Below, in pieces: positions 4,883 through 24,696 of a stretch of DNA of 64,000 bases (positions within the stretch are counted from its first letter, which is position 1; each line of letters opens with the position of its first letter). The notes beneath the pieces are model-generated. The model saw only the letters and a program-made list of their open reading frames with translations, did no database searches and was not told the DNA's origin. Source of the DNA: Citromicrobium bathyomarinum (GTDB lineage Bacteria; Pseudomonadota; Alphaproteobacteria; Sphingomonadales; Sphingomonadaceae); contig CP155577.1 in assembly GCA_001306305.2 (NCBI GenBank), positions 1,843,501 to 1,907,500 on the forward strand, read 5' to 3'. The position numbers and the translations under genes are program-made.

Positions 4883-4995
4883 CGTGGGTCCTTCGGATCA
4901 ATCTGTCGGGTTCGGGAATTGGGCGGTGAGATAGGCGCGAAGCGGCGAGGGGGCAAGCGTCCGCCCGCCCGCGCACCCACACGACAGGATGTTCT

Positions 4996-5925
4996 ATGCA
5001 CGTTGCAGTTATCGGGGCCGGAATGGCCGGGCTTACATGCGCCTCTCGCCTGGTCGAGGCGGGCCACAATGTCGCAGTGTTCGATAAAGGGCGCGGGCCC
5101 GGCGGGCGCATGGCGACTCGCCGGGTGGAGCATGACGGGGCGACCTTCCGCTTCGATCACGGCGCGCAATATTTCACCGCGCGCGAAATGGCGTTCCAGA
5201 CGCAGGTGCGGGCGTGGGAAGCCGACGGCATCGTCGCCCCGTGGCCCGCCGCGAAGGACGGCGCATGGGTCGGCACGCCGGGGATGAACGTGCCGATCCG
5301 GGCGATGGCAGAGGCTCTGGAGGTGCGCTTCGGCACTCGAATTGCCGGGCTGGTGCCCGATCGCGGTGGCTGGCGGGTGGAGGGCGAGGGCGCCCCCGAC
5401 GACCGGTTCGACGCGGTCGTGATCGCGGTCCCCGCCGAACAGGCGGCGCCGCTGCTGGCCGTCCACGCACCCGATTTCGCCGAGGATGCGCGCGATGTGA
5501 AAACCGAACCGTGCTGGACCGCAATGGTCGCGTTCGAGAGCCGTGTCGATGCGCCCGACACCTTGGCCGATGAAGGCGCGATCGGCTGGGCGGCGCGCAA
5601 CTCGGCCAAGCCGGGGCGCGATGCGGACCAGGAATGCTGGGTGATCCAGGCCAATCCGCGCTGGTCGCGCGCCCAGCTGGAGCGGGAGGCGGAGAATGTC
5701 GGAGAGGAACTGCTCGCCCATTTCGCCCGCGCGGTCGGCGATCTGCCGCCGCTCCTGTTCAGCAACGCGCACCGCTGGCGCTATGCTAAGTGCGAGAAGA
5801 ACGACGCGGGCGCGCTGTGGGACGCCGGGCTGCGCATCGGCGTGTGCGGAGACTGGCTGTCGGGCCCACGGGTCGAGAACGCATTTCTCTCCGGTCTGGC
5901 GCTTGCCCGGCGCATCGCAGATTAG
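4996..5925 (+). CDS. Renalase-like NAD(P)/FAD-dependent oxidoreductase
   Basis: A 309-residue flavoprotein. The N-terminus carries the Rossmann dinucleotide fold VIGAGMAGLTCASRL, followed by the FAD-binding FDKGRGPGGRMATRR and FDHGAQYFTAR, the signature stretch of bacterial renalase-like proteins. The C-terminus has the second FAD contact GVCGDWLSGPRVENAFLSG. Bacterial renalases oxidise aberrant isomers of reduced nicotinamide cofactors; the substrate here is not proven. It is probably cytoplasmic, since no signal peptide is visible. A lipoprotein L,D-transpeptidase gene follows 38 bases downstream. Confidence 0.85.
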   Translation: MHVAVIGAGMAGLTCASRLVEAGHNVAVFDKGRGPGGRMATRRVEHDGATFRFDHGAQYFTAREMAFQTQVRAWEADGIVAPWPAAKDGAWVGTPGMNVPIRAMAEALEVRFGTRIAGLVPDRGGWRVEGEGAPDDRFDAVVIAVPAEQAAPLLAVHAPDFAEDARDVKTEPCWTAMVAFESRVDAPDTLADEGAIGWAARNSAKPGRDADQECWVIQANPRWSRAQLEREAENVGEELLAHFARAVGDLPPLLFSNAHRWRYAKCEKNDAGALWDAGLRIGVCGDWLSGPRVENAFLSGLALARRIAD

Positions 5926-5963
5926 TCGGGGAACGGCTTGCGCGCTGCCGCCGTTCGGGTGGC

Positions 5964-7043
5964 ATGAACAGGATATTCAGCCCGCTGTGCCTCGCCCTTT
6001 CCCTCACCGCGCTGACGGGCTGCGGCCTGCAAGGAACCGACACCGACAAGGACGAACAGACGCCTGTCGAGCGCAAGGCTGAGGCGCCTGCCGCGACCGG
6101 CGGCTACGACGATCCGCGCATGGCTGCCGAGCCGGAAGCGAGCGTGAGCGATGGCAAGCTCTCGCTCAAGCTGCCTGACGGCATGACGCAGGAGATGCTG
6201 GGTGACCGCACCCCGGAGATGATCGCGGTGCAGGTGATGCTCGACCACACGGCCCACGCGCCCGGCGTGATCGACGGCTTCGGCGGTGGAAACACCGACA
6301 GCGCGATCCGCTACTTCCGCGAGGCGCACGGGATGTCCGCCGATGGCGGTGTCGATGACAAGCTGCTCCAGGCGCTGTTCGACGAGACGAGCGGCGATAT
6401 CTTCCGCACCTACACCGTGACCGAGAAGGATGCGAAGGGCCCGTTTAAGAAGCTGCCCGAGGACTTCGCCGACATGGCCGAGATGGATGCGCTGGGCTAC
6501 GAAACCCCGCTGGAGATGCTGGCCGAGCGGTTCCATATGGACGCGGAGTTCCTGCAGGCGCTCAACCCCGATGCCGATTTCGGCAAGGCGGGCACCAAGC
6601 TGGTGATCGTGAGCCACGGCAACGAGAAGGTGGCAGGCGACATCGCCAAGCTGGAAGTGCGCAAGGGCGAGGGCAGGCTGGTCGCGTTCGACGACGCGGG
6701 CGAGATCGTCGCGAGCTTCCCCGCCAGTATCGGCAGCGTCGAATTCCCGAGCCCGAGCGGGTCGATGTCGGTCAACACCGTCGCGCCCGAACCCAACTAC
6801 ACCTTCGATGGAGACAAGCAGGAGTGGGGGCCGGACGGCACCTTCATCCTGCCGCCGGGGCCGAACAATCCGGTCGGCGGGACGTGGATCGACCTGACCA
6901 AGGATGGCTACGGCATCCACGGCACGCCGGACCCGGACTTTATCGCCAAGGGCAAAAGCCACGGCTGCGTGCGGCTGACCAACTGGAATGCCGCCGCGCT
7001 CGCCAAGGTGATCGAGAAGGGCACCAAGGTGGTGTTCGCATGA
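5964..7043 (+). CDS. L,D-transpeptidase (YkuD) lipoprotein with peptidoglycan-binding domain
   Basis: The protein starts at ATG 5964, where MNRIFSPLCLALSLTALTGC gives a lipobox (LTGC, Cys20). A longer open frame upstream lacks such a signal. The middle holds a PG_binding_1-like repeat (AIRYFREAHGMSADGGVDDKLL) and a LysM-like stretch. The C-terminal YkuD domain has HGTPDP and the catalytic SHGCVRLTNWN with Cys at about residue 335 of 359. Such enzymes make 3-3 cross-links in peptidoglycan or attach proteins to it, in the periplasm from an outer- or inner-membrane anchor. The catalytic His and Cys are both present. Confidence 0.9.
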   Translation: MNRIFSPLCLALSLTALTGCGLQGTDTDKDEQTPVERKAEAPAATGGYDDPRMAAEPEASVSDGKLSLKLPDGMTQEMLGDRTPEMIAVQVMLDHTAHAPGVIDGFGGGNTDSAIRYFREAHGMSADGGVDDKLLQALFDETSGDIFRTYTVTEKDAKGPFKKLPEDFADMAEMDALGYETPLEMLAERFHMDAEFLQALNPDADFGKAGTKLVIVSHGNEKVAGDIAKLEVRKGEGRLVAFDDAGEIVASFPASIGSVEFPSPSGSMSVNTVAPEPNYTFDGDKQEWGPDGTFILPPGPNNPVGGTWIDLTKDGYGIHGTPDPDFIAKGKSHGCVRLTNWNAAALAKVIEKGTKVVFA

Positions 7044-14812: not shown

Positions 14813-14892
<80 letters not shown>

Positions 14893-14921: not shown

Positions 14922-14938
14922 GGTGGGCCCGGCAGGAC
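14922..14938. repeat. Left attachment site (att core copy)
   Basis: GGTGGGCCCGGCAGGAC is an exact 17-bp copy of positions 24621-24637, which form the 3' end of tRNA-Ile2. Identity stops abruptly on both sides. This copy is the distal end of the island, created by integration. Confidence 0.85.
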
Positions 14939-15000
14939 CGCAACCCCCATTAAGCCGTCATCAGCAAAAACAAGGTCTTACGTCGAACTGAGACCTTACT

Positions 15001-15021
15001 TGTGTCACACTACTGTGTCAC
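15001..15021 (+). repeat. Left integrase arm-type sites (two TGTGTCAC, 13-bp period)
   Basis: TGTGTCAC at 15001-15008 and 15014-15021 are in direct orientation with starts 13 bp apart, 62 bp inside the left core. The same pair with the same period and orientation occurs at the right end. This fits arm-binding sites of a lambda-type integrase. Confidence 0.65.
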
Positions 15022-15104
15022 ACACTGGCTCCGTACGGCTGGCGGATATAGCGGTCAAGCAATGCGTAACTGAGCCCCGCACGTTAGGCTCGTAAGCGGT
15101 ATCT

Positions 15105-15842
15105 CTACGGCGTGTTTCCGTCCTCTACAGTAGCGCAATATGCCACAAATGCCTCTTCGGCTGCGGGGCTTGGCCCTTCTCTGAAAAATTGATCAATGCG
15201 CTCATCTCTAACGGTAGTCACACCTTCAGAAAGATCGCAGTTGAAGATGTCGATAGCTTCCGAAGGCGGTCGAAGCTTCTCCGTGCTGATGGCAAATCCG
15301 TCTGCCGCAAGAGCACGCAAGGTCGTTTCATAGGCCGCTTCCAGCGCATCACCATCGTCTGAAGAAAGAGAAATGTCATCCACATAGGCTGCCACGTGGA
15401 CGTCGTCTGGAAGCCCGCACAAGTGTCTACCAACATCCGAGCTCGCCACAACTAGGGATGCAAGGATAGTTGATTGAGGAAAGCCGTAGGGCAGAGCATA
15501 TGGCGGGTTGCCGAACGGGTTCGAGACCGTTGACCATTTGGCGTAAAACCGCTCGTTCCCGATCCCGGTCCGTTCCAGCGCGCTTTGTACGCGTCGCCGT
15601 GAGATGCTGTAGAAGAAATTGGCGATATCGATACGCGCGAATAGCTTATTCTTCCGGTGATCATGGATCGCCGCAACATGCCCACCTTTCCTCAGGTGAT
15701 AATAGATTGGATCGAAGGCATAGGCCTTTTCGACAGCTTGTTTAAGCTCCTGACCAATCCGCCTGCCGATCTTGCTCGGGACGAAGATTGGTTTTCCGTT
15801 CCGATTGTAGGAATAAGAGAAATTTGGGATTGCCACGGGCAT
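15105..15842 (-). CDS. Compact reverse transcriptase (RT 1), 245 aa
   Basis: A short RT limited to the fingers-palm core. Motif A is FARIDIANFF (Asp72), motif B-like PYGFPQSTILASL lies at about 118-130, and motif C is AYVDDISLSS with YVDD at 153-156, so all catalytic aspartates are present. An N-terminal GKPIFVPSKIGRRIG segment and a downstream FNCDLSEG are also visible. It lacks a maturase or endonuclease domain and retron hallmark motifs are not evident. Its start lies inside the 3' end of the small membrane protein gene, so the two are probably coupled. Chromosomal RTs of this size in islands often belong to defence systems; the role here is inferred. Confidence 0.85.
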   Translation of the reverse strand: MPVAIPNFSYSYNRNGKPIFVPSKIGRRIGQELKQAVEKAYAFDPIYYHLRKGGHVAAIHDHRKNKLFARIDIANFFYSISRRRVQSALERTGIGNERFYAKWSTVSNPFGNPPYALPYGFPQSTILASLVVASSDVGRHLCGLPDDVHVAAYVDDISLSSDDGDALEAAYETTLRALAADGFAISTEKLRPPSEAIDIFNCDLSEGVTTVRDERIDQFFREGPSPAAEEAFVAYCATVEDGNTP

Positions 15843-15951
15843 AGCTGACAGCCTTGATCACGATTTCGACTACCACCTGAACCAATCCGAGGATTGCAGT
15901 CCAGAGCAGAAGCTTCTCGCGATCAAGGCCGGTGCGCGGCTTTTCAGTCAT
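15742..15951 (-). CDS. Small membrane protein overlapping RT 1, 69 aa
   Basis: ATG 15951 is preceded by an excellent ribosome site (GGGAGGTG). The peptide has a charged N-terminus, one membrane helix (LLLWTAILGLVQVVVEIVIKAV) and a polar basic tail. Its last 101 bases overlap the start of RT 1 in another frame, so the two proteins are likely made from one mRNA and coupled. I do not recognise the family. A one-helix partner next to an RT would fit an effector that acts on the membrane, but this is inference. Confidence 0.65.
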   Translation of the reverse strand: MTEKPRTGLDREKLLLWTAILGLVQVVVEIVIKAVSYARGNPKFLLFLQSERKTNLRPEQDRQADWSGA

Positions 15952-16238
15952 AAGCACCTCCCTCATCAACGCGTCCGGCAAACCACAAACCCTCTTAAGA
16001 GGGGTTGTCAGCCAAGAGACCCGATGGGCTCAAAACGTGAATTCCCGGATGGCTGAAAAGCTAAATCTGGGATTTCCGACAGGTGGGCATGTGGACCTAT
16101 CGCCGAACGTGCAAGCAGAATAGGATGGCACCGGTCGCTGCACAAGGGTTTAGTCGTTCGCGAGCGTTCGGGAGAGGTTCGGGGACGATCCGCGCTCCAT
16201 TGTTCATGTCTGTTGAACCAATAATACGGAGACCGAGC
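15952..16238. other. 287-bp divergent intergenic region of the island
   Basis: This region separates the minus-strand membrane protein/RT 1 pair from the plus-strand XRE gene, so it must hold both promoters. It contains a palindrome CCTCTTAAGAGG within AAACCCTCTTAAGAGGGGTT near 15990, and an imperfect 11-bp inverted repeat near 16042-16076 (AATTCCCGGAT / ATCTGGGATTT). It could encode a structured leader or small RNA for the RT, but no known ncRNA motif was recognised. Confidence 0.4.
16199..16222. promoter_or_regulatory. Probable operator of the XRE regulator
   Basis: ATTGTTCA and TGAACCAAT form an imperfect inverted repeat around a seven-base centre, ending 17 bases before the ATG at 16239. 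The position next to a XRE gene suggests autorepression. Confidence 0.45.
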
Positions 16239-16931
16239 ATGGACACGTTGAAGCGAGACCCGGAATACATCGCTGAGCAGGTGAAGCTCATTCGGAAAAT
16301 GTTTAGCCTTACCCAAGAAAACTTGGCTGATGCGGCAGGCCTGAGCTCGCGCACGATAGAGAAAATTGAAAGCGGTCGGCATCGGCCAGAGATACAGACA
16401 CTGCGCAGCATCGCGAGGGCGGTGCAATTCGATGTGAACGTATTTGCAAAGCCGAGCCCTGAAGAGGAAGAGCGCCAAAAGTCGGAAATGCTCCGCGCTT
16501 TCCGGAAGACTGTCGTTGCACCCATAAACCCAGTTCGAACTGTAAATGACTTCCTGCACGCTCTGGAAGCCCGGGATGCATTCCGTATCGATACCTCTGC
16601 CGTCAGCGAAGATGCCGCCCTTTCTATAGCGGCTGAGATGACTGATTGGATCAGAGATTTGGGGGACATATGGGACGAGTGTTACATGTCTCAACGAGTA
16701 GAGTACGCGAGAGAGTTCGTGAACTTGTGCCAGCAAATTGAGGGCGCAGGCTACATTTGTTATATGGGCAGACACCGCCAACAGATGAGATATCGTGAGG
16801 GGTCTAGAACTATCCTGACTGTCGGACTCATGATCATCCTCCCCAAAAATTCAGATGCGACCCGATATACAATCATTCCTCTAGAAGGGGTTTGGGAAAG
16901 TGTGGAAGAAGAACGCGCTAATTTGGAATAG
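16239..16931 (+). CDS. XRE-family transcriptional regulator with C-terminal domain
   Basis: The start is ATG 16239, preceded by CGGAGA at good spacing. A longer frame from 16083 has no ribosome site and adds a basic, unlikely leader. Residues about 10-65 form a helix-turn-helix (IRKMFSLTQENLADAAGLSSRTIEKIESG). The remaining 165 residues form an unassigned domain with LGDIWDECYMSQRVEYAREFVNLC. The stop is 20 bases before the next gene, so the two form an operon. By layout it could be the regulator or antitoxin of the downstream protein. Confidence 0.8.
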   Translation: MDTLKRDPEYIAEQVKLIRKMFSLTQENLADAAGLSSRTIEKIESGRHRPEIQTLRSIARAVQFDVNVFAKPSPEEEERQKSEMLRAFRKTVVAPINPVRTVNDFLHALEARDAFRIDTSAVSEDAALSIAAEMTDWIRDLGDIWDECYMSQRVEYAREFVNLCQQIEGAGYICYMGRHRQQMRYREGSRTILTVGLMIILPKNSDATRYTIIPLEGVWESVEEERANLE

Positions 16932-16951
16932 TTCAGGACTTTTTAAATAAT

Positions 16952-17521
16952 ATGTCGCAGGGACTTCGGGATCAGATTGTTGAGAAGATTGTTCAAGGCC
17001 AACCTTCTCTCGGAGCATTTCTTCATAGTTCTCCAAATGCTCTCGACCTGAGCGTTGGTTCTTGGGATTTTCAGTCCTATGCATTTCAACAGGGCTTCGA
17101 GACCCTATGGGATCATGCGCGAGCGGATCGCTCGGGGTTGCTGATCCAGCCCATGCTCTCGCTCTGGCGGCAAAGCATCGAATTGTCTCTAAAGGCAGCG
17201 ATAATTTACATTGCCGGTGAAATCCCGGGCAATCCGGGCCACAAGCTGGACGCACTTTTTTCTGAACTCATAGCCGCAATATCCTCATTTGGATTGTCTG
17301 TCGATGACCATTTGACCGCTAGCGTCAGTGATATGATTGCTCTGGCGCAATCAATCGATCCGATTGCTGACCGGTTTCGATATCCGACCAATAAGAAGGG
17401 CGAGGTATTTGAGAGGCTCTCAACTGATCTCGACGAGCTATTTCAAGCTCATTGGATCATCGTCACCTATTGCGAGGGAGCGGCAATAGAGGTGGAGGCC
17501 CTCAGAGGATCGACATCCTAG
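16952..17521 (+). CDS. Hypothetical protein, possibly HEPN-like
   Basis: A 189-residue soluble protein, largely helical. It has the arrangement LWRQSIELSLKAAIIY, then PGHKLDALFSEL, then IADRFRYPTNKKGE. The helix with R..E..LK, a GHxL element and a following FRYP stretch recall HEPN-superfamily proteins seen in defence islands, but the canonical RxxxxH RNase motif is not evident. It follows the XRE gene at 20 bases, which fits a two-gene toxin-antitoxin or defence unit. The family call is a weak inference; the gene itself is well supported. Confidence 0.65.
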   Translation: MSQGLRDQIVEKIVQGQPSLGAFLHSSPNALDLSVGSWDFQSYAFQQGFETLWDHARADRSGLLIQPMLSLWRQSIELSLKAAIIYIAGEIPGNPGHKLDALFSELIAAISSFGLSVDDHLTASVSDMIALAQSIDPIADRFRYPTNKKGEVFERLSTDLDELFQAHWIIVTYCEGAAIEVEALRGSTS

Positions 17522-17600
17522 CGGCTGCACCCGCAGGTCATTCGGAGCGCATTTGGGCGAGGGAAATTAGCTCTTACTATTGCGAGCAGCTGGATTGATT

Positions 17601-17616
17601 TTGCAACTGGTTGCAA
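17601..17616. repeat. Island palindrome copy 1 (TTGCAACTGGTTGCAA)
   Basis: Matches the 16-bp palindrome TTGCAACCGGTTGCAA with one change in the centre. It is the first of a tandem pair (second at 17649) upstream of the RT 2 promoter, so it is a likely operator. Confidence 0.6.
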
Positions 17617-17648
17617 CGCTGAATTAACGAGAATGCTGATCGAGTTCA

Positions 17649-17664
17649 TTGCAACGGGTTGCAA
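17649..17664. repeat. Island palindrome copy 2 (TTGCAACGGGTTGCAA)
   Basis: Second copy, starting 48 bp after copy 1 and ending 10 bases before the putative -35 of RT 2. The location suits a regulator that controls RT 2 transcription. Confidence 0.6.
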
Positions 17665-17674
17665 CCGATAGTTG

Positions 17675-17702
17675 TTGCAGAGCGTTTCCCTGTGCTTATA
17701 AG
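17675..17702 (+). promoter_or_regulatory. Putative promoter of RT 2
   Basis: TTGCAG (17675-17680) and TATAAG (17697-17702) are separated by 16 bases and lie 32 bases upstream of the RT 2 start. They sit immediately after the two palindromes. The -35 box itself is similar to the palindrome half-site. Confidence 0.4.
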
Positions 17703-17706
17703 CCCC

Positions 17707-17730
17707 AGCTCCTTTTGATCCTCAGGAGCT
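17707..17730 (+). promoter_or_regulatory. Hairpin that hides the RT 2 ribosome-binding site
   Basis: AGCTCCT (17707-17713) pairs exactly with AGGAGCT (17724-17730) around a 10-base loop. The 3' arm contains the AGGAG ribosome site of RT 2, which starts at GTG 17734. Folding would block translation, so RT 2 is probably kept silent until something melts or binds the leader. Confidence 0.55.
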
Positions 17731-17733
17731 TTC

Positions 17734-19062
17734 GTGGCCATCTTATTTTGCCCTCACTGCGATGTTTCCGCATCGGGCAAGTTGTTCACGCCCGAGCGAT
17801 TTGTATCAGAAATTACTTCGGATCAGTCGCGGCCTGTCTACCTTTGCGCGACTGCGGAGAGGCAACTACGTGAGTGGACCCGAAGTGCCGCCAATCGTTC
17901 GCTAAGGAGGATCGAAGACGCGTACGCTCTAGGTCGCTACAAGATCGCTCGACGTGAAAGACGCGAACACATCGCGAGGCGGGCGGTTCATCTCCATGCG
18001 CTCTTCCTCGCGTTGCGGATGCAGTGGCCTGTTCTTAGCAGCATGTCATCAGAAGAGCAGGAACGGGTGAGGCGGCATCGGATACGAGTTGCCTTCGAAC
18101 AGCTTCCACGCATCGGCAACTTCCGCAAGCCTGCCCGCGCGCGAATGCGTCTCAAGCCAAAGCGCAATGGGCAAGGGCATCGCGGAATTACCTCTTTCGG
18201 CTGGGTAGATAAAGCGCGTCAGTTTGTGCTCCGCTCAGCCTTCCAACCCTTTGCGAACCTCCACGAGGCCCAGTTCATGTATGCGCATGAAGGAATTCCT
18301 CGTGGACCAGCGGCGGTTCGCGAAGCTCTCCTCTCGTCCCTCGCTGATCGCGGTGATGGATGGTCGTTCCTGCAATTCGACATCGTGGACTTCTACGGGT
18401 CGATCTCGCACGCATGGCTGGAGAGTAACCTCGGCATCGATCCGATGGTCGTATCTCGTCATGTCCATACCGGGCAGATGATGATTAAGCGTCCTAGGAA
18501 GATGGCCACCGTTCATGCCACGCATGAAGCAAACGCAGAGGGGGGTCTGCGGGGAATACCGCAAGGATCGGCGCTCTCTCCCATCATCGCCGACTGGATA
18601 ATGGCCCAGGTTCTAAGAGATACCGCTGTCTTCGACGAACTGCCGGTCTACGTTTGGTCGGACAACGTCGGCGTGCTTGCACCCCGGCATAGGGAGAGAG
18701 AGATCGTCGGCCTTGTCCGAGAAGCTTTCGAGCGACACGGCGCAGGCCCCTTCAAACTAACATACAGCGCCAAGCCGACCGTTGAAGAGTTCAAGTTCCT
18801 TGGCACCAATTATCGAGTGGACGAGTGCGGGGTGCCGCACGCCTATATTGCAGAGCAAATCTGGTCCAACTGGGTCTCGTCGATCGGGAGCCGACTGCTG
18901 ATCGCGGGGTCCAACGAAATTGCAGATATTGAGCGTCACGTGGCCGGAAAGCGGGCGGCGTGGTCTTGGTGGGGCGGGTGGCCTGCAATTGAGGATGAGG
19001 TTGCTTCGCTTATCGCCAGCGCGAAGATGCAACCGGGCGTGTCAGAACGCATCGCTGCCTGA
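17734..19062 (+). CDS. Reverse transcriptase with divergent catalytic motif (RT 2), 442 aa
   Basis: GTG 17734 follows AGGAG at six bases. The N-terminal 140 residues are basic and helical, starting with a FCPHCD pair of Cys that could be half a zinc ribbon. The RT palm follows: motif A FLQFDIVDFYGSI (Asp216), motif B LRGIPQGSALSPIIA (about 272-286) and motif C VYVWSDNVGVL, where the usual YxDD reads WSDN (Asp310, Asn311). EEFKFLGTNYRV, a D/E-type motif, comes next. The second catalytic Asp is therefore Asn. No maturase or endonuclease domain is seen. It is unlike RT 1 in length and motifs. Its last 21 bases overlap the convergent serine recombinase gene. Confidence 0.85.
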   Translation: MAILFCPHCDVSASGKLFTPERFVSEITSDQSRPVYLCATAERQLREWTRSAANRSLRRIEDAYALGRYKIARRERREHIARRAVHLHALFLALRMQWPVLSSMSSEEQERVRRHRIRVAFEQLPRIGNFRKPARARMRLKPKRNGQGHRGITSFGWVDKARQFVLRSAFQPFANLHEAQFMYAHEGIPRGPAAVREALLSSLADRGDGWSFLQFDIVDFYGSISHAWLESNLGIDPMVVSRHVHTGQMMIKRPRKMATVHATHEANAEGGLRGIPQGSALSPIIADWIMAQVLRDTAVFDELPVYVWSDNVGVLAPRHREREIVGLVREAFERHGAGPFKLTYSAKPTVEEFKFLGTNYRVDECGVPHAYIAEQIWSNWVSSIGSRLLIAGSNEIADIERHVAGKRAAWSWWGGWPAIEDEVASLIASAKMQPGVSERIAA

Positions 19063-19632
19063 CGAGCAGTAGCGAGAAACGGTATTCTTCGAGATACCGA
19101 ACTGCGCCATCGTTTGTGAGATGCTCGCGCTGTTTTCGCGACGCCACTTGCGGACTTCCGACGGGTCGGCGGCATAAGGACGACCGAGGCTTTCTTTGCC
19201 GCGATGAGTTTTTCCCGTCGTCGCAAGCGCCGCTCGCGCAGCGTCTCGGCCTGCATCGCATCGTTCTTTGATCCGTTGGCGCTCCATGTCCGCGATCTGT
19301 GCAAGCACGGCCACAATGAGCTCGCCCACGCCTTTGCCAATCGGTCCGAGGCCCACAACGTCGAGCGTAACTCCTTGCGAAATCAAATTACGAACGTTCG
19401 CCTGTACGTCGAGCGCGTCACGTCCGAGACGGTCGAGAGCATAGACACAAACAGTGTCGCCCTCGCGCACGTAGGATAAAAGATCGCTAAATCCGGGGCG
19501 GGTGGCAGCGGGCGTTGCTCCGCTCACACCTTCGTCGCTGAACTCACGATCAAATGGACCTTGGAGAGCACTGCGCTGTGCGTCGAGGCTCTGCCCTCCC
19601 GTAGATACTCGAAAATAGGCGATCCGGCTCAT
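19042..19632 (-). CDS. Serine recombinase (resolvase/invertase family)
   Basis: ATG 19632 with GGAGAACAGGA upstream opens MSRIAYFRVSTGGQSLDAQ, the catalytic start with the nucleophile Ser in RVST. DEGVSGATPAATRPGFSDLL and VYALDRLGRDALDV are conserved catalytic-domain stretches, with the long E-helix region AQIADMERQRIKERC following. The C-terminus ends in a helix-turn-helix (SISQTMAQFGISKNTVSRYC). At 196 residues it has the size of Tn3-type resolvases or Pin-type invertases. No paired res or inversion sites were seen nearby, so its DNA target is unknown. Confidence 0.9.
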   Translation of the reverse strand: MSRIAYFRVSTGGQSLDAQRSALQGPFDREFSDEGVSGATPAATRPGFSDLLSYVREGDTVCVYALDRLGRDALDVQANVRNLISQGVTLDVVGLGPIGKGVGELIVAVLAQIADMERQRIKERCDAGRDAARAALATTGKTHRGKESLGRPYAADPSEVRKWRRENSASISQTMAQFGISKNTVSRYCSSGSDAF

Positions 19633-19864
19633 TCCTGTTCTCCCTACACCCAGAAGATAGCTAAGCTTTTTAGGGCATCCCCAAAACGTCTCCACCCTAT
19701 CTTATGGGGCAGGAGGTGCAAGCCGAAATGCGCGCCCCAGAACTTACAAGTTTTGCTCTGCATTTTGACAAACGGGGCCCAATCGATATCACGGTGTAAC
19801 AAACCTTTCTTTTTGAGAGGGCAGCATAGTTTCTGGTGGCATCTTTCTGGGGGGAGTGAATTTG

Positions 19865-21577
19865 ATGCGTTCGTCGTTTCTATTATCCGCTGCTTTTTTT
19901 ACGATTGCGGGCATGTTCGCAGCACCCTCACCCGCTCATGCAACGGCGGACACTGACGCTGCTACGCCCCAAAGCCTGTGGCAATTTCTTGATGATTCCT
20001 TTGAGGAGATTGCGTCAGCATGCATCAAGGAGGGTAAATTCAAGGCGAAAGAGCGAATTTTAGACGGTACGAAGTATCAGACTTTCGTGCCCGACTATGT
20101 TTGGAACTCCGATCGCCTAGATGGTCAACTAAGAGATCAGGTTACGGGCTCGAATGTAAATGGATTGCAAACCTACTGGGGAGGTATTTACAGCTCGCGA
20201 TCTGTGACGAGCAGGCTACCCAATACCTCGTTAGACATCTTTTGGGGTGGTGATGAGCTAATAATCTCCACCGACCAAACTGACCGAGACATCGAGTTTA
20301 CAAACTGTGTTACAATGGTAGCTGCACAAGGTGGAGTCGAAGCGAACTTCTCCGCTTTTCAAGCGGCTGTAGACTCGTCATTGGCCTCTTCAGAGAAGAC
20401 TACAGCCTACGTATTTATAGGCAAGGCCTTTTCTCCCTATGCGATAGCTTTGGGAATGGAAAATACACAGGGGACTAGTCTCCCGCCAAACAGAAGTCCT
20501 CTACAATACATGACTAGGCTCTGGCACTGGTATAAGAGAAATCCGACTCAAGCAGCTAACACCCTCTATATCCCCGCGTCTGTCGACACTGTTCAAGTTC
20601 GCAGGGAAGCAAACGTTTCCTTAGAGACTTTACTCGACGCCCGCGCGAGTGCTGCATTTGGACTGGGTGTTGTGCAGGGCTCCGTATCTTCGAATGCGAA
20701 ATACGATATGGCAATTGATCGCTCAAGTATTGATACGGACGTGGCTTTGCTGGGAGATTTTTCCTTTCTGGAAATTGATGACGCAAACCAGCTGGCGAAA
20801 AAACTGACCAATGCTCTTAAGTTGGACGTCGCTGGGCCTGAAAATATCCAAGAAATCGGCGCTAACAACTTTTCGTACACCGCAGAGATCGAGGGTATGA
20901 GCCGGGCTCTTTGTGACAGCGCAGAACTCGAAACGGACAGCGGTGGCGATTTCCCGGGCGTGAAGGCGTCTTACATCAGGCCAAAGCAAGACGCGGGCGG
21001 TGGCGAGACTGATGCTTGTATTGTTCGTTGGGACTTCCAAGGGCCGTCTCAAATCCGGGAAAAACACAGGCTTCAGCTTATAGTACGGTCTCGCTTAAGC
21101 AATGAGGGTGGCGGTGCATCGTTCGAAATTAAAACAAATGACGAACTCGCGTTAGCTGATGTAAGAAATAAAATAGGGCTCGGTGGATCGAGATTTCCTA
21201 CTTTGACCTTGCGTCCAGAAGATGCGACCATGGATAAAGAGTACTCGTTAAATTACCTGATCAAGGAAGAAGACGGTGTGCGCTTAGAGCGCATCTTGGT
21301 CAATCCTTCTAATGTTTCAGTCGAGTGTGAGGGAAGGGATGCTAGCTTAAATGGTTTCGCCGAGTTGTGGGATGCCAACATTACGCAACCCGATACGAGG
21401 CGACTAGTCGGTCTCACTCTTCGCTTTAGCGCTGACTATTTCCGTTTCCTCGGGAAGGGGGACACTACTACGTGCTCACTTTCCGGCACTCTCCGCTCTG
21501 ACAGATCCGGTATTAGCCCCGCAAGGTTCGATCTTCCCCTCCCAACAAAGGAGTTTTCGGTCGTTAGGCCGGAATGA
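19865..21577 (+). CDS. Exported protein of unknown function, 570 aa
   Basis: ATG 19865 lies eight bases after GGGGGGAG. MRSSFLLSAAFFTIAGMFAAPSPAHA is a clear Sec signal peptide, so the product is exported. The mature part is mixed alpha/beta, with scattered Cys that could form disulfides (CIKEG, NCVTM, ALCDSA, DACIV, VECEG, TTCSL). It has no motif I recognise; the second half (from about residue 330) looks like repeated beta-rich units. GC is clearly lower than the chromosome. It sits alone in the island between the recombinase and another exported protein gene. Confidence 0.75.
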   Translation: MRSSFLLSAAFFTIAGMFAAPSPAHATADTDAATPQSLWQFLDDSFEEIASACIKEGKFKAKERILDGTKYQTFVPDYVWNSDRLDGQLRDQVTGSNVNGLQTYWGGIYSSRSVTSRLPNTSLDIFWGGDELIISTDQTDRDIEFTNCVTMVAAQGGVEANFSAFQAAVDSSLASSEKTTAYVFIGKAFSPYAIALGMENTQGTSLPPNRSPLQYMTRLWHWYKRNPTQAANTLYIPASVDTVQVRREANVSLETLLDARASAAFGLGVVQGSVSSNAKYDMAIDRSSIDTDVALLGDFSFLEIDDANQLAKKLTNALKLDVAGPENIQEIGANNFSYTAEIEGMSRALCDSAELETDSGGDFPGVKASYIRPKQDAGGGETDACIVRWDFQGPSQIREKHRLQLIVRSRLSNEGGGASFEIKTNDELALADVRNKIGLGGSRFPTLTLRPEDATMDKEYSLNYLIKEEDGVRLERILVNPSNVSVECEGRDASLNGFAELWDANITQPDTRRLVGLTLRFSADYFRFLGKGDTTTCSLSGTLRSDRSGISPARFDLPLPTKEFSVVRPE

Positions 21578-21686
21578 TCAAAATCTGACCAAGAGCAACG
21601 CCGCTTGGGCCCGTGCTATGGCTCATTTAAGGTGGAGAAATTACGGCGTCCAACCGCTTGTCATCATGAGGGCAGGAGACATCGCT

Positions 21687-21702
21687 TTGCAACAGGTTGC
21701 AC
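21687..21702. repeat. Island palindrome copy 3 (TTGCAACAGGTTGCAC)
   Basis: A less perfect copy of the island palindrome. It lies between the convergent ends of the two exported-protein genes, where a promoter is not expected, so a role other than simple repression is possible. Confidence 0.45.
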
Positions 21703-21726
21703 AGGGCGCGGAGCGCTGAGCAGACC

Positions 21727-22269
21727 TCAAAATGCCAACTTATCTGAGAGGTCAGCCGGATCAGTTTCCACTGCTTCGGCGCCACACATGATGGCAACAT
21801 GTTCGTCGTAAAGGCTACTAGACAACATAAGTTTTGGCTTCTCGGCGATGTTCGTCTCCTCGGGCTCACGCTTCATCGGCCTGCTAGACATATCCATCGA
21901 GTAAAGAGTGACGATGTCGGTCTGGCTCGGTTGCAGCGCGAATGGCTCCCATCCGGTGTAGCCACCCATCCGGTTTTTCGCATTAATTTCGCCACAGAAA
22001 ATTAGCACTATCCCACCTCGATGCTTCCACGGAACCTTGTCTGATTGCCCTTCATCGGAGGTGTACACGGAACGAACGAGACGTGCCTGGACATTCCTAA
22101 ACCGAGCCGAAGGATAATCCGTAAGCGCATCATCCAAGGTCGCCCGCGCTTCGGGGATAGCCGCCATTGCTCTAGCGTTGAGGGTTTCTTGGGCAGTGTC
22201 AGTTTGAGCCGCTGCCATGACTGGAATGGAAATGAGAGTAGCGCCAAGCACGGTCGCGAGCTTCAACAT
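21727..22269 (-). CDS. Exported protein of unknown function, 180 aa
   Basis: Starts with a signal peptide (MLKLATVLGATLISIPVMAAAQ). The mature region has ARFRNVQARLVRS, then GGIVLIFCGEINAKNRMGGYTGWEPFAL. This FCGEINxKNxxGGYTGW pattern is one I associate with small exported proteins on sphingomonad plasmids and islands, without an assigned function. A second Cys near the end (AIMCGAEA) could pair with the first. It is transcribed toward the 570-residue exported protein gene. Confidence 0.75.
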   Translation of the reverse strand: MLKLATVLGATLISIPVMAAAQTDTAQETLNARAMAAIPEARATLDDALTDYPSARFRNVQARLVRSVYTSDEGQSDKVPWKHRGGIVLIFCGEINAKNRMGGYTGWEPFALQPSQTDIVTLYSMDMSSRPMKREPEETNIAEKPKLMLSSSLYDEHVAIMCGAEAVETDPADLSDKLAF

Positions 22270-22331
22270 TCGATCTCCTGTCGTTCGTAAATAGGTACTA
22301 TAAAGCCCTGTTTGCTAACTGCAAACCGGCA

Positions 22332-22718
22332 TTGTGCGTGCCTGTCGCAATCGGTCCTTCGCCTCCAAAAGTCTCACCTTGGGAGGCGCGATTGGCCACA
22401 CTGGCGAGAGAGTTTGGGAATGGGGTCCGTGTTCGCCGGAAAGCGCGCGGGCTCACGCAAGCAAAGCTCGGTGAGGCAGCTGGACTGAGCGAGGAGTGGT
22501 TACGTCGCATCGAACGGGGTGCCGGTACGCCGTCGTTTGACGCTATCGAAGCCTTATCAGAAGCTCTCGGGTGCTCGGCTGGTGATCTCTTCACCGTGCC
22601 GTCAACTCGTGATCAGAACCTCACGAGAATCGATGCAATGCTCGCCGATCTGCCCATCGATGATTTGGCATGGGTGGAGGAGCTGCTTTCGGTCGCTCTG
22701 CGCGGTAGAGGCGAATAA
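22332..22718 (+). CDS. XRE-family regulator, about 128 aa
   Basis: A small DNA-binding protein with the helix-turn-helix at VRVRRKARGLTQAKLGEAAGLSEEWLRRIERG, then GTPSFDAIEALSEALGCSAGDLF. The C-terminal LADLPIDDLAWVEELLSVAL could be a dimer helix. The exact start is uncertain: the frame opens at TTG 22332, and GTG 22338 is also possible. It lies just ahead of a copy of the island palindrome at 22768 and convergent to the integrase, a usual place for an island regulator or directionality factor. Confidence 0.75.
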   Translation: MCVPVAIGPSPPKVSPWEARLATLAREFGNGVRVRRKARGLTQAKLGEAAGLSEEWLRRIERGAGTPSFDAIEALSEALGCSAGDLFTVPSTRDQNLTRIDAMLADLPIDDLAWVEELLSVALRGRGE

Positions 22719-22767
22719 CGCGAACGTGAGGCAGACTTACATCTGGATCACAGCCGCTCAGGTTGTG

Positions 22768-22783
22768 TTGCAACCGGTTGCAA
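22768..22783. repeat. Island palindrome copy 4 (perfect TTGCAACCGGTTGCAA)
   Basis: The perfect 16-bp form of the palindrome. It lies between the end of the second XRE gene (22718) and the convergent end of the integrase gene (22804). Confidence 0.6.
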
Positions 22784-22803
22784 AATTGGGCTGAAGAGAC
22801 TGC

Positions 22804-24534
22804 CTATGTGGAGTCCTTCCGAAGCACACTTATGAGGCTGAAATCGTCATACTGCACTTTCTGGAGAGCCCGGTGTAGCAGCGGGACTGCGGTCCGGTCT
22901 CCGTACCGCTGGCCCTGATTGATTGCTGCCCAGCCGCCCAAGGCGTTTGCGGTGTCATCGGGTATGTCAGCCATCCGACAGGCATCCCTAAATCCATGCC
23001 GGAAGCTATGAAATACGAGCGAGGCGTCGCGCAGTCCGACACCGTCCATAAATCGTCCAAACCACTTCGAGAAATTATCTGAGTAACTGCCTTTGGCGCT
23101 TCGGGTAAGTCCGGGGAAAAGCCGGTCGGTCTTTCCGCAGCTTCGGACGTAATCCTCAAACCCTGCTGCGAGCAACTCATCGTGGATGGGGAGGATGCGT
23201 TCACTGTTGCGGTTTTTGAAGCGCTTCCCCTCCACCGCTCTACCGGTTCGGTCGAAACGCGTAAGATTGAGACATCGGACCCCATTGACCGTCACCGCGT
23301 CCTCAGTTCGCAGTTGGCATAGCTCGCCAGCGCGGGCTCCGGTGTACGCTGCCAAAGCAGGTATCCAAAACTTGTGAGGGGCTTCAATGCGGAATGCTGC
23401 AAGATGCCGAAAGATCGTCCTCAATTCATCCGGCGTCATTCCGCGTCGCTCGACTTCGGCCTCCCGCTTTGGCTTCAAACCTTCGGTTTTGACGGTTACG
23501 CCGTAGCCGTGAAGTGCGCCCCAGCGAAGGATGGTGCAGAGCCCTTGCACGTAGCTCCTTACAGTATTCGGTGCGAGGCGCTTATGATCGCCGTCATCGG
23601 CAGCCACGATGGATTGAGCAAAAGTCAGCCTTGGGAACTTCTTGGTTCCATTCGCGGGGAGCCGTTCGATGAAGGCGACCAGATGGGCGCAACGCTGCCG
23701 CGTGATCTGAGAGGTAGGTAGTTCTCGTCCCCATTCTTCCTCAATGAGACGGAAGAGTAAGCCGTACTTTCGAGCGGTGCTCTCGGTGCCATGGAGGCGC
23801 TCCCGCTCCGCGCGATAGTCGTCCAGAAGGTCGCCAACGGTGCCCCTATGCTCCTCACCAGCGTGTCCCATGGGATTAAAGATGGGATGGGCAGGCGTTC
23901 GCGCCTCACCGGTGAGGTGATCCCTCGCGAGCATGGTTTCATGCCGCAAGCCTTCCGCTACCAGCGATCTCAAGCGTCTGAAGGCTGGGCCGTCGTGATC
24001 GACCGACGCATAGTGGACCGCAGTTTTTATCCTACCGAGCTTAAGGGGCCTACTCGCGGCACCTGCTTCTACAAGCAGCCGATCGGCCATATCGGTAGCC
24101 AAGTCTCGCCCCTCTTCTCGGGCTTGAGACCCTAGTGCCTGATCCGCCTCGATGGCTTCGATAGCACCTTGAATGCCTGTGTCGTCATCCGGGGAGGGCT
24201 GGCGGATTGCGCTCCGACCGTTCCACCAGTCGCGAACGAGGTTTTCCAACTCACCTCTACCGAGTGCATCGATGCAACCGGTTGCAATGGCCGCTCGTTT
24301 AGCAGGCATTGATCGGAGCTCGTCCCTAGCTCTCGCAAACATCAGCTCAATCTCAGCCATCTTGATCGGGTAGAGCCGGATCGCTTCCCGCTTGCTCTCG
24401 GTACCCAAGCTGCGGCGGATCGATTCTTTTCCAACAACCGCGACGATCTCCATTGGCGTGCGCTTGCGCACCCACCAGCGGCTGGAGTTTTTCGGTCTGT
24501 GTAGCCCGGGGTAGTTCGCCATTTCATCGTCCAT
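22804..24534 (-). CDS. Site-specific tyrosine recombinase (island integrase)
   Basis: A 576-residue integrase. The N-terminus (YPGLHRPKNSSRWWVRKRTP) matches the DUF6538-type arm-binding start. A SAM-like core-binding domain spans roughly residues 230-345. The catalytic domain has Arg401 in YTGARAGELCQL, HSFRHGF with His509 and Arg512, GGW near 533-535 and the nucleophile Tyr544 in GQRYGD. All catalytic residues are present, so the enzyme looks active. The start codon overlaps the right-hand TGTGTCAC pair, suggesting autoregulation. It sits 86 bases from tRNA-Ile2, its target. Confidence 0.93.
   Translation of the reverse strand: MDDEMANYPGLHRPKNSSRWWVRKRTPMEIVAVVGKESIRRSLGTESKREAIRLYPIKMAEIELMFARARDELRSMPAKRAAIATGCIDALGRGELENLVRDWWNGRSAIRQPSPDDDTGIQGAIEAIEADQALGSQAREEGRDLATDMADRLLVEAGAASRPLKLGRIKTAVHYASVDHDGPAFRRLRSLVAEGLRHETMLARDHLTGEARTPAHPIFNPMGHAGEEHRGTVGDLLDDYRAERERLHGTESTARKYGLLFRLIEEEWGRELPTSQITRQRCAHLVAFIERLPANGTKKFPRLTFAQSIVAADDGDHKRLAPNTVRSYVQGLCTILRWGALHGYGVTVKTEGLKPKREAEVERRGMTPDELRTIFRHLAAFRIEAPHKFWIPALAAYTGARAGELCQLRTEDAVTVNGVRCLNLTRFDRTGRAVEGKRFKNRNSERILPIHDELLAAGFEDYVRSCGKTDRLFPGLTRSAKGSYSDNFSKWFGRFMDGVGLRDASLVFHSFRHGFRDACRMADIPDDTANALGGWAAINQGQRYGDRTAVPLLHRALQKVQYDDFSLISVLRKDST
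24273..24286. repeat. Island palindrome copy 5 (TGCAACCGGTTGCA)
   Basis: A perfect 14-bp core of the palindrome inside the 5' part of the integrase gene, about 250 bases downstream of its start. An intragenic position could allow a roadblock on integrase transcription. Confidence 0.5.
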
Positions 24535-24554
24535 GTGTCACGCATATGTGTCAC
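24534..24554 (+). repeat. Right integrase arm-type sites (two TGTGTCAC, 13-bp period)
   Basis: TGTGTCAC at 24534-24541 and 24547-24554, same orientation and 13-bp period as the pair at 15001-15021. They lie 66 bp inside the right core. The first copy covers the integrase ATG (24534-24532 on the minus strand). Confidence 0.65.
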
Positions 24555-24619
24555 AGTTCGACGGGAAAACCCTATATTTTGCGATGGCTTACGCATTTCT
24601 GCGCCGTCCGGTGGGGGGG

Positions 24620-24696
24620 TGGTGGGCCCGGCAGGACTCGAACCCGCGACCTAGCCGTTATGAGCGGCCAGCTCTAACCAACTGAGCTACAGGCCC
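24620..24696 (-). tRNA. tRNA-Ile2 (anticodon CAT, lysidine-modified)
   Basis: The minus strand folds as a tRNA. The acceptor GGGCCTG pairs with CGGGCCC, the D arm contains AGCTCAGTTGGTTAGAGC, the anticodon loop CTCATAACG carries CAT, the T arm has GGTTCGAGTCC, and CCA is encoded. The CTCATAA anticodon loop identifies it as the AUA-reading tRNA-Ile, whose C34 is changed to lysidine by TilS, and not a tRNA-Met. Its 3' end doubles as the island attachment site and was regenerated on integration. Confidence 0.88.
24621..24637. repeat. Right attachment site (att core in tRNA-Ile2)
   Basis: The 17 bases GGTGGGCCCGGCAGGAC are the complement of the tRNA 3' end (T-arm side through the CC of CCA). They are repeated at 14922-14938, marking the integrase-proximal junction. 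Confidence 0.85.

Follow-up and report, generated by a model that had tools for sequence, protein, structure and literature searches.

In retrons, a reverse transcriptase (RT) is preceded by an msr-msd RNA closed by the a1/a2 inverted repeats, with a conserved priming G after a1, and the motifs NAXXH and VTG are hallmarks of the RT itself. The retrons used for comparison here are Eco1/Ec86, Ec78/Eco7, Ec83, Eco8 and the type IX Kva2, and the solved ones among them have sizeable effector proteins. Type IX retrons comprise a HEPN protein, a winged-helix protein, a non-coding RNA and an RT, as given in PMC13405049. A different arrangement, DRT3, has two RTs (Drt3a and Drt3b) in one locus, adjacent and co-directional. 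A 9.7-kb integrative island of the alphaproteobacterium Citromicrobium bathyomarinum also holds two RTs, here termed RT1 and RT2. It lies in a 64,000-nucleotide stretch of contig CP155577.1 (positions 1,843,501 to 1,907,500 of the forward strand), called the window below; coordinates without further label refer to it. The original prediction, based on the letters of the window, described two dissimilar RT genes in opposite orientation, and this was borne out together with their lengths and motifs, both genes being intact: RT1 (15105–15842, minus strand) encodes 245 aa with YVDD, and RT2 (17734–19062, plus strand) encodes 442 aa, with WSDN replacing YxDD. Absent from that prediction were a retron-type RNA and a short open reading frame (ORF) next to RT1, a serine recombinase, an integrase and the attachment (att) repeats of the island. 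Very probably the two genes divide such that RT1 heads a compact retron variant and RT2 most likely belongs to the island. With RT1 as the heart of a retron and RT2 as the island's own, they would be neighbours rather than partners.

RT1 and its upstream RNA

RT1 exceeds the Pfam RVT_1 cut-off (50.4 bits against 29.6). Its AlphaFold model has a pLDDT of 93.0, and in Foldseek the first four ranks are retron RTs, followed at rank five by the RT of DRT9. A profile of the RT1 family searched against the Protein Data Bank (PDB) finds the RTs of Kva2, Ec86 and Eco8 first, Kva2 being the best; ten of the first 11 PDB sequence matches of the family are named retron RTs, and 9kjx is titled Retron-Eco7. 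RT1 is therefore of the retron class both by fold and by sequence. Relatives, mostly around 250 aa with some to 300, match RT1 over its whole length, and on that ground a truncated pseudogene was rejected.

The RNA assigned to RT1 extends from 15969 to 16112 on the minus strand, as judged from a covariance model, a1/a2 pairing and a hairpin palindrome. Its a1 repeat is located at 16100–16109, a2 at 15972–15981 and the msd hairpin at about 15985–16008, so that the locus is like those of known retrons in having an upstream RNA with a1/a2 repeats and an msd hairpin. Relatives fall into an alpha group, which includes the window, and a prophage group made up of the viral-contig members together with L008 (L and G numbers are our handles for loci and genomes). 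The region before the RT aligns over roughly 250 bp among the alpha members, and better among the prophage group, where it runs from CCTGACGTTAGC to GCTAAG..CGTCAGG, laid out as the a1/a2 repeats of retrons are. The alignment of the prophage RNAs holds 19 of 20 rows (L067 was excluded), and L009, L039, L072 and L082 are in neither RNA alignment.

A covariance model built from six alpha RNAs, with the window and L044 excluded, was searched over 23 loci (354,532 bases). It finds the window RNA once (15968–16112, minus strand, 34.3 bits, E 3.4e-6), and the only other matches are L012 and L044. The model misses the six prophage-type loci given to it and also L009, L039, L072 and L082; it is thus by position and architecture, and not by this model, that the two RNA groups are linked as homologous. 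Among the eight alpha rows, one of which is the window, the a1/a2 repeats are paired in 95.0% of cells and four of ten pairs have changed on both sides; the alpha structure as a whole has a covariation of 0.321, compared with 0.186 in shuffles, none of 500 of which attains it, and with no more than 0.145 in slid versions. The two helices of the 19 prophage-type rows are paired in 92.1% of cells, compared with 34–47% when slid, with a covariation of 0.142 against 0.112 in shuffles (reached by 3 of 500). The priming G is present as well, within TTAG in all 19 prophage-type rows and within TAG after a1 in the window and six of the seven other alpha rows, L004 having TAA. A scan of DNA with a 16-mer of the RNA returned 38 stretches, 30 of them with an RT1-family gene 187–196 bases downstream; one further stretch ends after 70 bases and seven have no RT1-family gene.

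Several observations weigh against this assignment. The structures that were counted had been drawn from rows of the same alignments, prophage and alpha, and are thereby favoured against the slid controls. The numbers of pairs changed on both sides are equalled by 73 (prophage) and 56 (alpha) of 500 shuffles. In the prophage group no pair of the a1/a2 helix has changed on both sides, and the helix has fewer further pair types than its shuffles (499 of 500 reach the number); being nearly invariant, it contributes no covariation itself. Pairing in the alpha msd helices amounts to only 76.6% and 55.0% of cells, and the window RNA folds no better than its shuffles (z −1.00). An unguided search for repeats in single sequences outscored every one of 60 shuffles in 4 of 32 cases, and in the window it selected a different pairing (p 0.10). 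Among 31 family members, NAXXH was found in three and VTG in none, with [YF][MV]DD present in all 31; in these motifs, and in its size of 245 aa, RT1 differs from the described retrons. No Rfam retron family matches the window or five relatives at E up to 0.5.

Profile placement among RT classes, which the original prediction had put forward as a check, was weak for RT1 and, as described below, partial for RT2. PADLOC ranks RT_IX first for RT1 (50.1 bits) and a CRISPR-type RT profile next (49.8 bits), both weak; across nine family members the best match is to RT_VI, also weak and above the best match to RT_IX. The NCBIfam St85 model scores 47.5 on RT1 against a cut-off of 235, and the defence models searched put no name to this kind of locus. 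Taken together, we regard RT1 as highly likely to be a retron in architecture. Because the profile matches are weak and NAXXH and VTG are absent, we class the locus as a retron on its architecture and fold but, on its RT, as a retron-like variant that we file under no named type.

A further resemblance to retrons is that the RT1 family occurs in viral contigs and, close to defence-type genes, on plasmids. It matches 38 viral-contig loci and 14 plasmid records, nine of which cover at least 80% of RT1 at 32–52% identity. In the six plasmid loci with gene tables, the homolog (labelled ‘reverse transcriptase domain-containing’) is the single annotated RT gene, with no common partner gene, and is preceded by a gap of about 330 to 1,080 bp with no listed gene; the short ORF is unlisted in these PLSDB tables, which are incomplete. 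Going by annotated names, toxin-antitoxin, restriction, AbiEii, PIN or abortive-infection genes lie within 6 kb in L004, L005, L006 and L009; in L007 the neighbours include AAA ATPase and UvrD-helicase genes, and L008 has no such genes. The viral contigs carry no host names. The prophage group is probably gammaproteobacterial, since L008 comes from Pantoea and the enterobacterial RybB RNA lies close by in L069. The retron of L045 was found in a collection of 5,426 Escherichia coli genomes only as a fragment of about 60 bases, in one genome. On a plasmid of Rhizobium jaguaris (L012, 3724–4735) the retron RNA is retained (134 bits) beside a broken copy of RT1.

The short ORF and its ribosome-binding site

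No large effector was found at the RT1 locus. Where the described retrons have one, the locus has a short ORF of 69 aa (15742–15951, minus strand) that overlaps the start of RT1; its ATG is at 15951, with GGGAGG five bases ahead. From 33 RT1 clusters the broken copy L012 was set aside, and in all 32 others a short ORF lies between the RNA and the RT, starting 76–163 bases before the RT and extending to the RT start or beyond, a criterion that is lenient when taken alone. The peptides share a pattern: many have an LGL-like motif near the start, most are hydrophobic in the middle, and NY, in some HY or SY, stands at the end near the RT start; otherwise they have diverged. The maximal hydropathy over 19 residues ranges from 0.54 (L039) to 2.68 (L082), with 2.44 in the window, so not all members look transmembrane. 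The nonsynonymous rate (dN) is below the synonymous rate (dS) in 29 of 31 within-group pairs, which are not independent and to which constraint on the RNA may contribute. Seven peptides were compared with the PADLOC models, and none gave a match at E up to 1.

In the prophage group the ribosome-binding site (RBS) of the short ORF is part of a further predicted helix, which sets this group apart from the described retrons. This helix would form between the msr segment CTCTCTGTAC and GTATAGAGAG at the RBS, crossing the a1/a2 helix, and coordinated changes on both sides are seen among members, for example TCCGTAGAA with TTCTACGGA. Over the 19 rows this helix is paired in 89.2% of cells, and 4 of 11 pairs have changed on both sides. 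Judged by duplex energy, no more than 7 of 200 shuffled RNAs are as good in 16 of the 19 rows, the exceptions being L070, L077 and L078 (17, 23 and 15 of 200). For members outside both alignments the corresponding numbers are 4 (L067), 5 (L009), 6 (L072), 17 (L082) and 25 (L039). Telling against this helix, the duplex does not stand out in the eight alpha rows, the window among them (z −0.6 to 0.8). An RBS-occluding helix was searched for in the window and was not supported (z 0.1), and no gate is claimed there.

We tentatively take the peptide to be the effector, an assignment that we hold at slightly below even confidence. It is also quite possible, if somewhat doubtful, that the short ORF is a leader through which translation of RT1 is coupled, or a fragment split off from the RT. 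Its position, overlapping or abutting the RT start in 32 of 32 members, would suit this explanation, as would L052 and L054, in which it is in frame with the RT with no stop between. RT1 is moreover at least 65 residues shorter than the retron RT chains in the PDB (310 aa or more, tags included), and hydropathy is low in L039 and in L072 (0.67). Yet a leader or RT fragment would not readily account for the hydrophobic middle and the NY, HY or SY end kept by peptides that have otherwise diverged, nor for the presence, in the prophage group, of an RBS of its own under a covarying helix.

If the peptide is the effector, the locus could function as follows. RT1 would prime on the conserved G after a1 (..TAG..) and copy the hairpin into a short msDNA, and the complex of RT, msr and msDNA would keep the system silent. 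Contact of a phage product with the msDNA or the RT might then free the short, often hydrophobic peptide, which would arrest growth at the membrane. In the prophage relatives translation of the peptide is probably gated as well, because the msr can pair with its RBS. The computed elements of this scheme are the upstream RNA closed by a1/a2, the msd hairpin, the short ORF next to it and the RT1 start inside that ORF. The locus may represent an undescribed type of retron, having a peptide effector between msd and RT and, in the prophage branch, an RNA pseudoknot over the RBS of the peptide such that reverse transcription could switch translation of the toxin; taken as a whole, we consider this proposal rather unlikely. 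The literature search found no retron with such a peptide and no island pairing an RT with a serine recombinase; most retron papers lay beyond its scope and absence in print is not claimed.

Separate distributions of the two reverse transcriptases

Two genes on the plus strand lie between the RTs, and both are regarded as separate cargo. The original prediction read them as an XRE gene and a possible HEPN-like gene. The first call held: the XRE-type regulator (16239–16931, 230 aa) matches HTH_3 with 38.6 bits, its start being by inspection likely the ATG at 16239 and not 16083. The second is weak, the HEPN-like protein (16952–17521, 189 aa) scoring 15.2 bits against a HEPN cut-off of 22.

These genes bring to mind a variant of a type IX retron, in which RT1, XRE and the HEPN-like protein would act together, a HEPN RNase and a DNA-binding protein being held by the RT and its msDNA. 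The leading PADLOC profile of RT1 is that of this type, the Kva2 RT is the best PDB match of the family profile, and the XRE and HEPN-like proteins resemble the Kva2 proteins in size. However, the pair is divergent from RT1 and outside its operon, and neither a HEPN nor a winged-helix gene is found within the RT operon. Both genes, and RT2 with them, are absent from all 49 RT1-family loci in a sequence search within the flanks covered. Their homologs keep apart at the eight loci searched: XRE is absent from all six loci of HEPN-like homologs (three plasmids and three genomes), and of the XRE homologs, found in 28 plasmid records, two loci were read, lying beside phd/YoeB genes or transposases, with neither the HEPN-like gene nor an RT of the RT1 or RT2 families. 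A sequence search of the PDB gave nothing for the HEPN-like protein at E up to 1, and across the nine members RT_VI outscores RT_IX. Membership of type IX was accordingly rejected, and we consider such a variant very improbable.

The RTs themselves are also found apart. Searches of the order for RT1 and RT2 (296 genomes drawn for each, E up to 0.001 for RT2) gave five other genomes with an RT1 match and ten with an RT2 match, with no overlap; among the genomes drawn, only the source genome matches both. RT1, XRE and the HEPN gene are absent from all four close RT2 islands in a sequence search within the flanks covered. On the ground of these non-overlapping distributions a paired-RT system, the first of two possibilities raised at the outset, was rejected; they agree with the second, two independent systems stacked in one hotspot. 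The layout had also been said to be unlike DRT3, which proved correct: the two systems are alike in having two RTs in one locus, but the RTs of the window are opposite in orientation and separately distributed, and the Drt3a model scores them at 23.0 and 18.8 bits, far below its cut-off of 200. As to the suggested role in defence, the retron class and the context speak for it in the case of RT1; for RT2, which is accompanied by recombination genes, it is unproven. The degrees of confidence attached here to the effector, to the retron architecture and to the island role of RT2 are judgement and not computation.

RT2 and the tRNA-Met island

The island occupies 14922–24645 at the 3′ end of tRNA-Met (24620–24696, minus strand). 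Its 25-bp att repeats (14922–14946 and 24621–24645) are identical at 22 of 25 positions, including the first 17. Two congeners, G676 and G680, have an empty site, with tRNA-Met and tRNA-Pro separated by 29 bp; their alignments cover the right flank (95% over 1,280 bp) and the left flank (97–98% over 135 bp) and overlap by 25 bp. The limits of the island follow from the repeats, this tRNA spacing and the overlapping flanks. In bins of 1 kb its GC content is 50–58%, against about 57–70% outside, and the low-GC stretch is bounded by tRNA-Pro (14816–14892) and tRNA-Met. Insertion was most likely by the tyrosine integrase encoded at 22804–24534 on the minus strand, which has Pfam DUF6538 and Phage_integrase domains.

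RT2 exceeds the RVT_1 cut-off with 35.3 bits against 29.6. Tail-to-tail with it, with a 21-bp overlap of the 3′ ends, is a serine recombinase of the resolvase family (19042–19632, minus strand; Resolvase 99.3 bits). The close relatives of RT2 are found in G139 and G226 (49% identity), G161 (33%) and G110 (53% but interrupted); other matches are weak or short, and the weak ones in G038, G508, G617, G639, G649, G652 and G657 were excluded from the comparison of contexts. In all four close relatives the same recombinase is tail-to-tail with RT2. In three of them (G139, G226 and G161; HTH_17 in the one scanned) a small helix-turn-helix (HTH) gene lies directly upstream; neither the window island nor the G110 locus has this gene, which occurs upstream of two of four distant relatives (L036 and L037). 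The close relatives are in islands with an integrase, three at tRNA-Leu and that of G110, from a different genus of the same family, at the same tRNA-Met site as in the window. A 4.2-kb block that includes the RT2 module is 98% identical between G139 and G226, whose aligned chromosomal flanks are 70–78% identical, and the cargo varies from one RT2 island to another. The copy in G110 (L035, 7263–9975) is split by an apparent IS21-type insertion and has a further in-frame stop, so the RT2 gene can be lost.

Upstream of RT2 is a palindrome, TTGCAACNNGTTGCAA, with two full copies 48 bp apart (17601–17664). Further sites are at 21687 (14/16), at 22768 (full, just past the integrase stop) and at 24274 (14/16, inside the integrase gene). 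The sequence TTGCAACNNGTTGC has eight exact matches on both strands of the 3.3 Mb genome, all of them at five sites in the island, and its reversed control has none. Full 16-base copies are also present in L032, L033, L035 and L154, and in both L154 and the window a copy is separated by 36 bp from the integrase gene end. The copies in L034, L037 and L038 are partial, and L036, L152, L153 and L159 have none. On the strength of these sequence matches the palindrome ties RT2 to the integrase.

RT2 matches UG17 and UG4 RTs, and group II intron and G2L RTs, by weak profile hits; Foldseek, with a model of middling quality (pLDDT 67.8), ranks a group II intron RT and the G2L4 RT at the top. It differs from all of these in its SDN motif C and its serine recombinase partner. 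Motif C is WSDN or YSDN in the aligned close relatives and YCDN in L037; it is YVDD in L154, HGDD in L036 and YADD in L038. A group II intron maturase was rejected, as no intron RNA was found at Rfam thresholds and the maturase model scores 36.2 bits against 300.

RT2 and the recombinase might instead form a stand-alone defence module, akin to the UG/Abi RTs, a reading that deserves weight although we think it does not reach an even chance. It draws on weak UG17 matches in four of four members and on the defence-type cargo of three RT2 islands, namely IetAS in G139, a methylase in G161 and, in G226, a cytosine methylase together with an Eco29kI match below threshold. In PADLOC, RT2 itself nevertheless matches UG17 over part of the profile (36.5 bits, positions 124–277 of 429), the partners that recur are recombination or HTH genes, and the palindrome connects RT2 with the integrase. 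Island maintenance or mobility would be the most likely function of RT2, with defence as the alternative; that it serves the island rather than defence we judge to be evenly balanced. By its sequence context RT2 appears to belong to the core of tRNA islands of this class.

The wider distribution of RT2 is mixed. L036 and L154, distant relatives, adjoin an integrase related to that of the window and are near tRNA-Tyr and tRNA-Ser. Against an island role, other distant matches, G350 and G559, have no such island; G280 and G220 share some 38 C-terminal residues with RT2 and lack the recombinase; G221 has a copy of the recombinase without RT2; and in L072, an RT1-family locus, a close copy (318 bits) is located just downstream of its RT1 (4932–6593 for the two), a second instance of a retron next to this recombinase. 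The placement of these genes fits islands that share a recombinase and may exchange both RTs as parts. Short frames in L040 (5871–6062) and L041 (9797–10078), with neither recombinase nor tRNA nearby, contain about 38 C-terminal residues of RT2 and may be a separate small motif or remnants. A pattern search of viral contigs and a search of plasmids at E up to 1e-5 found no RT2, and phage records gave four weak matches. Of two scans of public genome contigs, one gave no relative and the other gave two loci; the named carriers are Allopontixanthobacter confluentis and Qipengyuania mesophila.

The G221 region (L152, 16–9852) combines the HEPN-like gene and the same recombinase family with a MobA/MobL relaxase and an RT fused to a trypsin-like domain, a fusion that resembles type XI retrons. 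This suggests that mobilisable relatives of the window island exist.

Two more island genes were noted. That at 19856–21577 encodes 573 aa with a signal-like start and has no Pfam family at cut-off and no PADLOC match; that at 21727–22269 encodes 180 aa, with no Pfam family at cut-off and weak PHROG matches. Across the genome RVT_1 gives three hits at E up to 0.001; the third, outside the window (L002, genome positions 2925581–2926093, in a frame of 352 aa), matches neither RT1 nor RT2.

If the proposal for RT1 is correct, a minimal retron would consist of a small RT, a short RNA and a tiny peptide, with control of the peptide at the level of RNA in one branch of the family, and the link between reverse transcription and toxicity would be open to test by a few base changes. 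The result for RT2 points to a class of small tRNA islands built on an RT and a serine recombinase, with exchangeable cargo.

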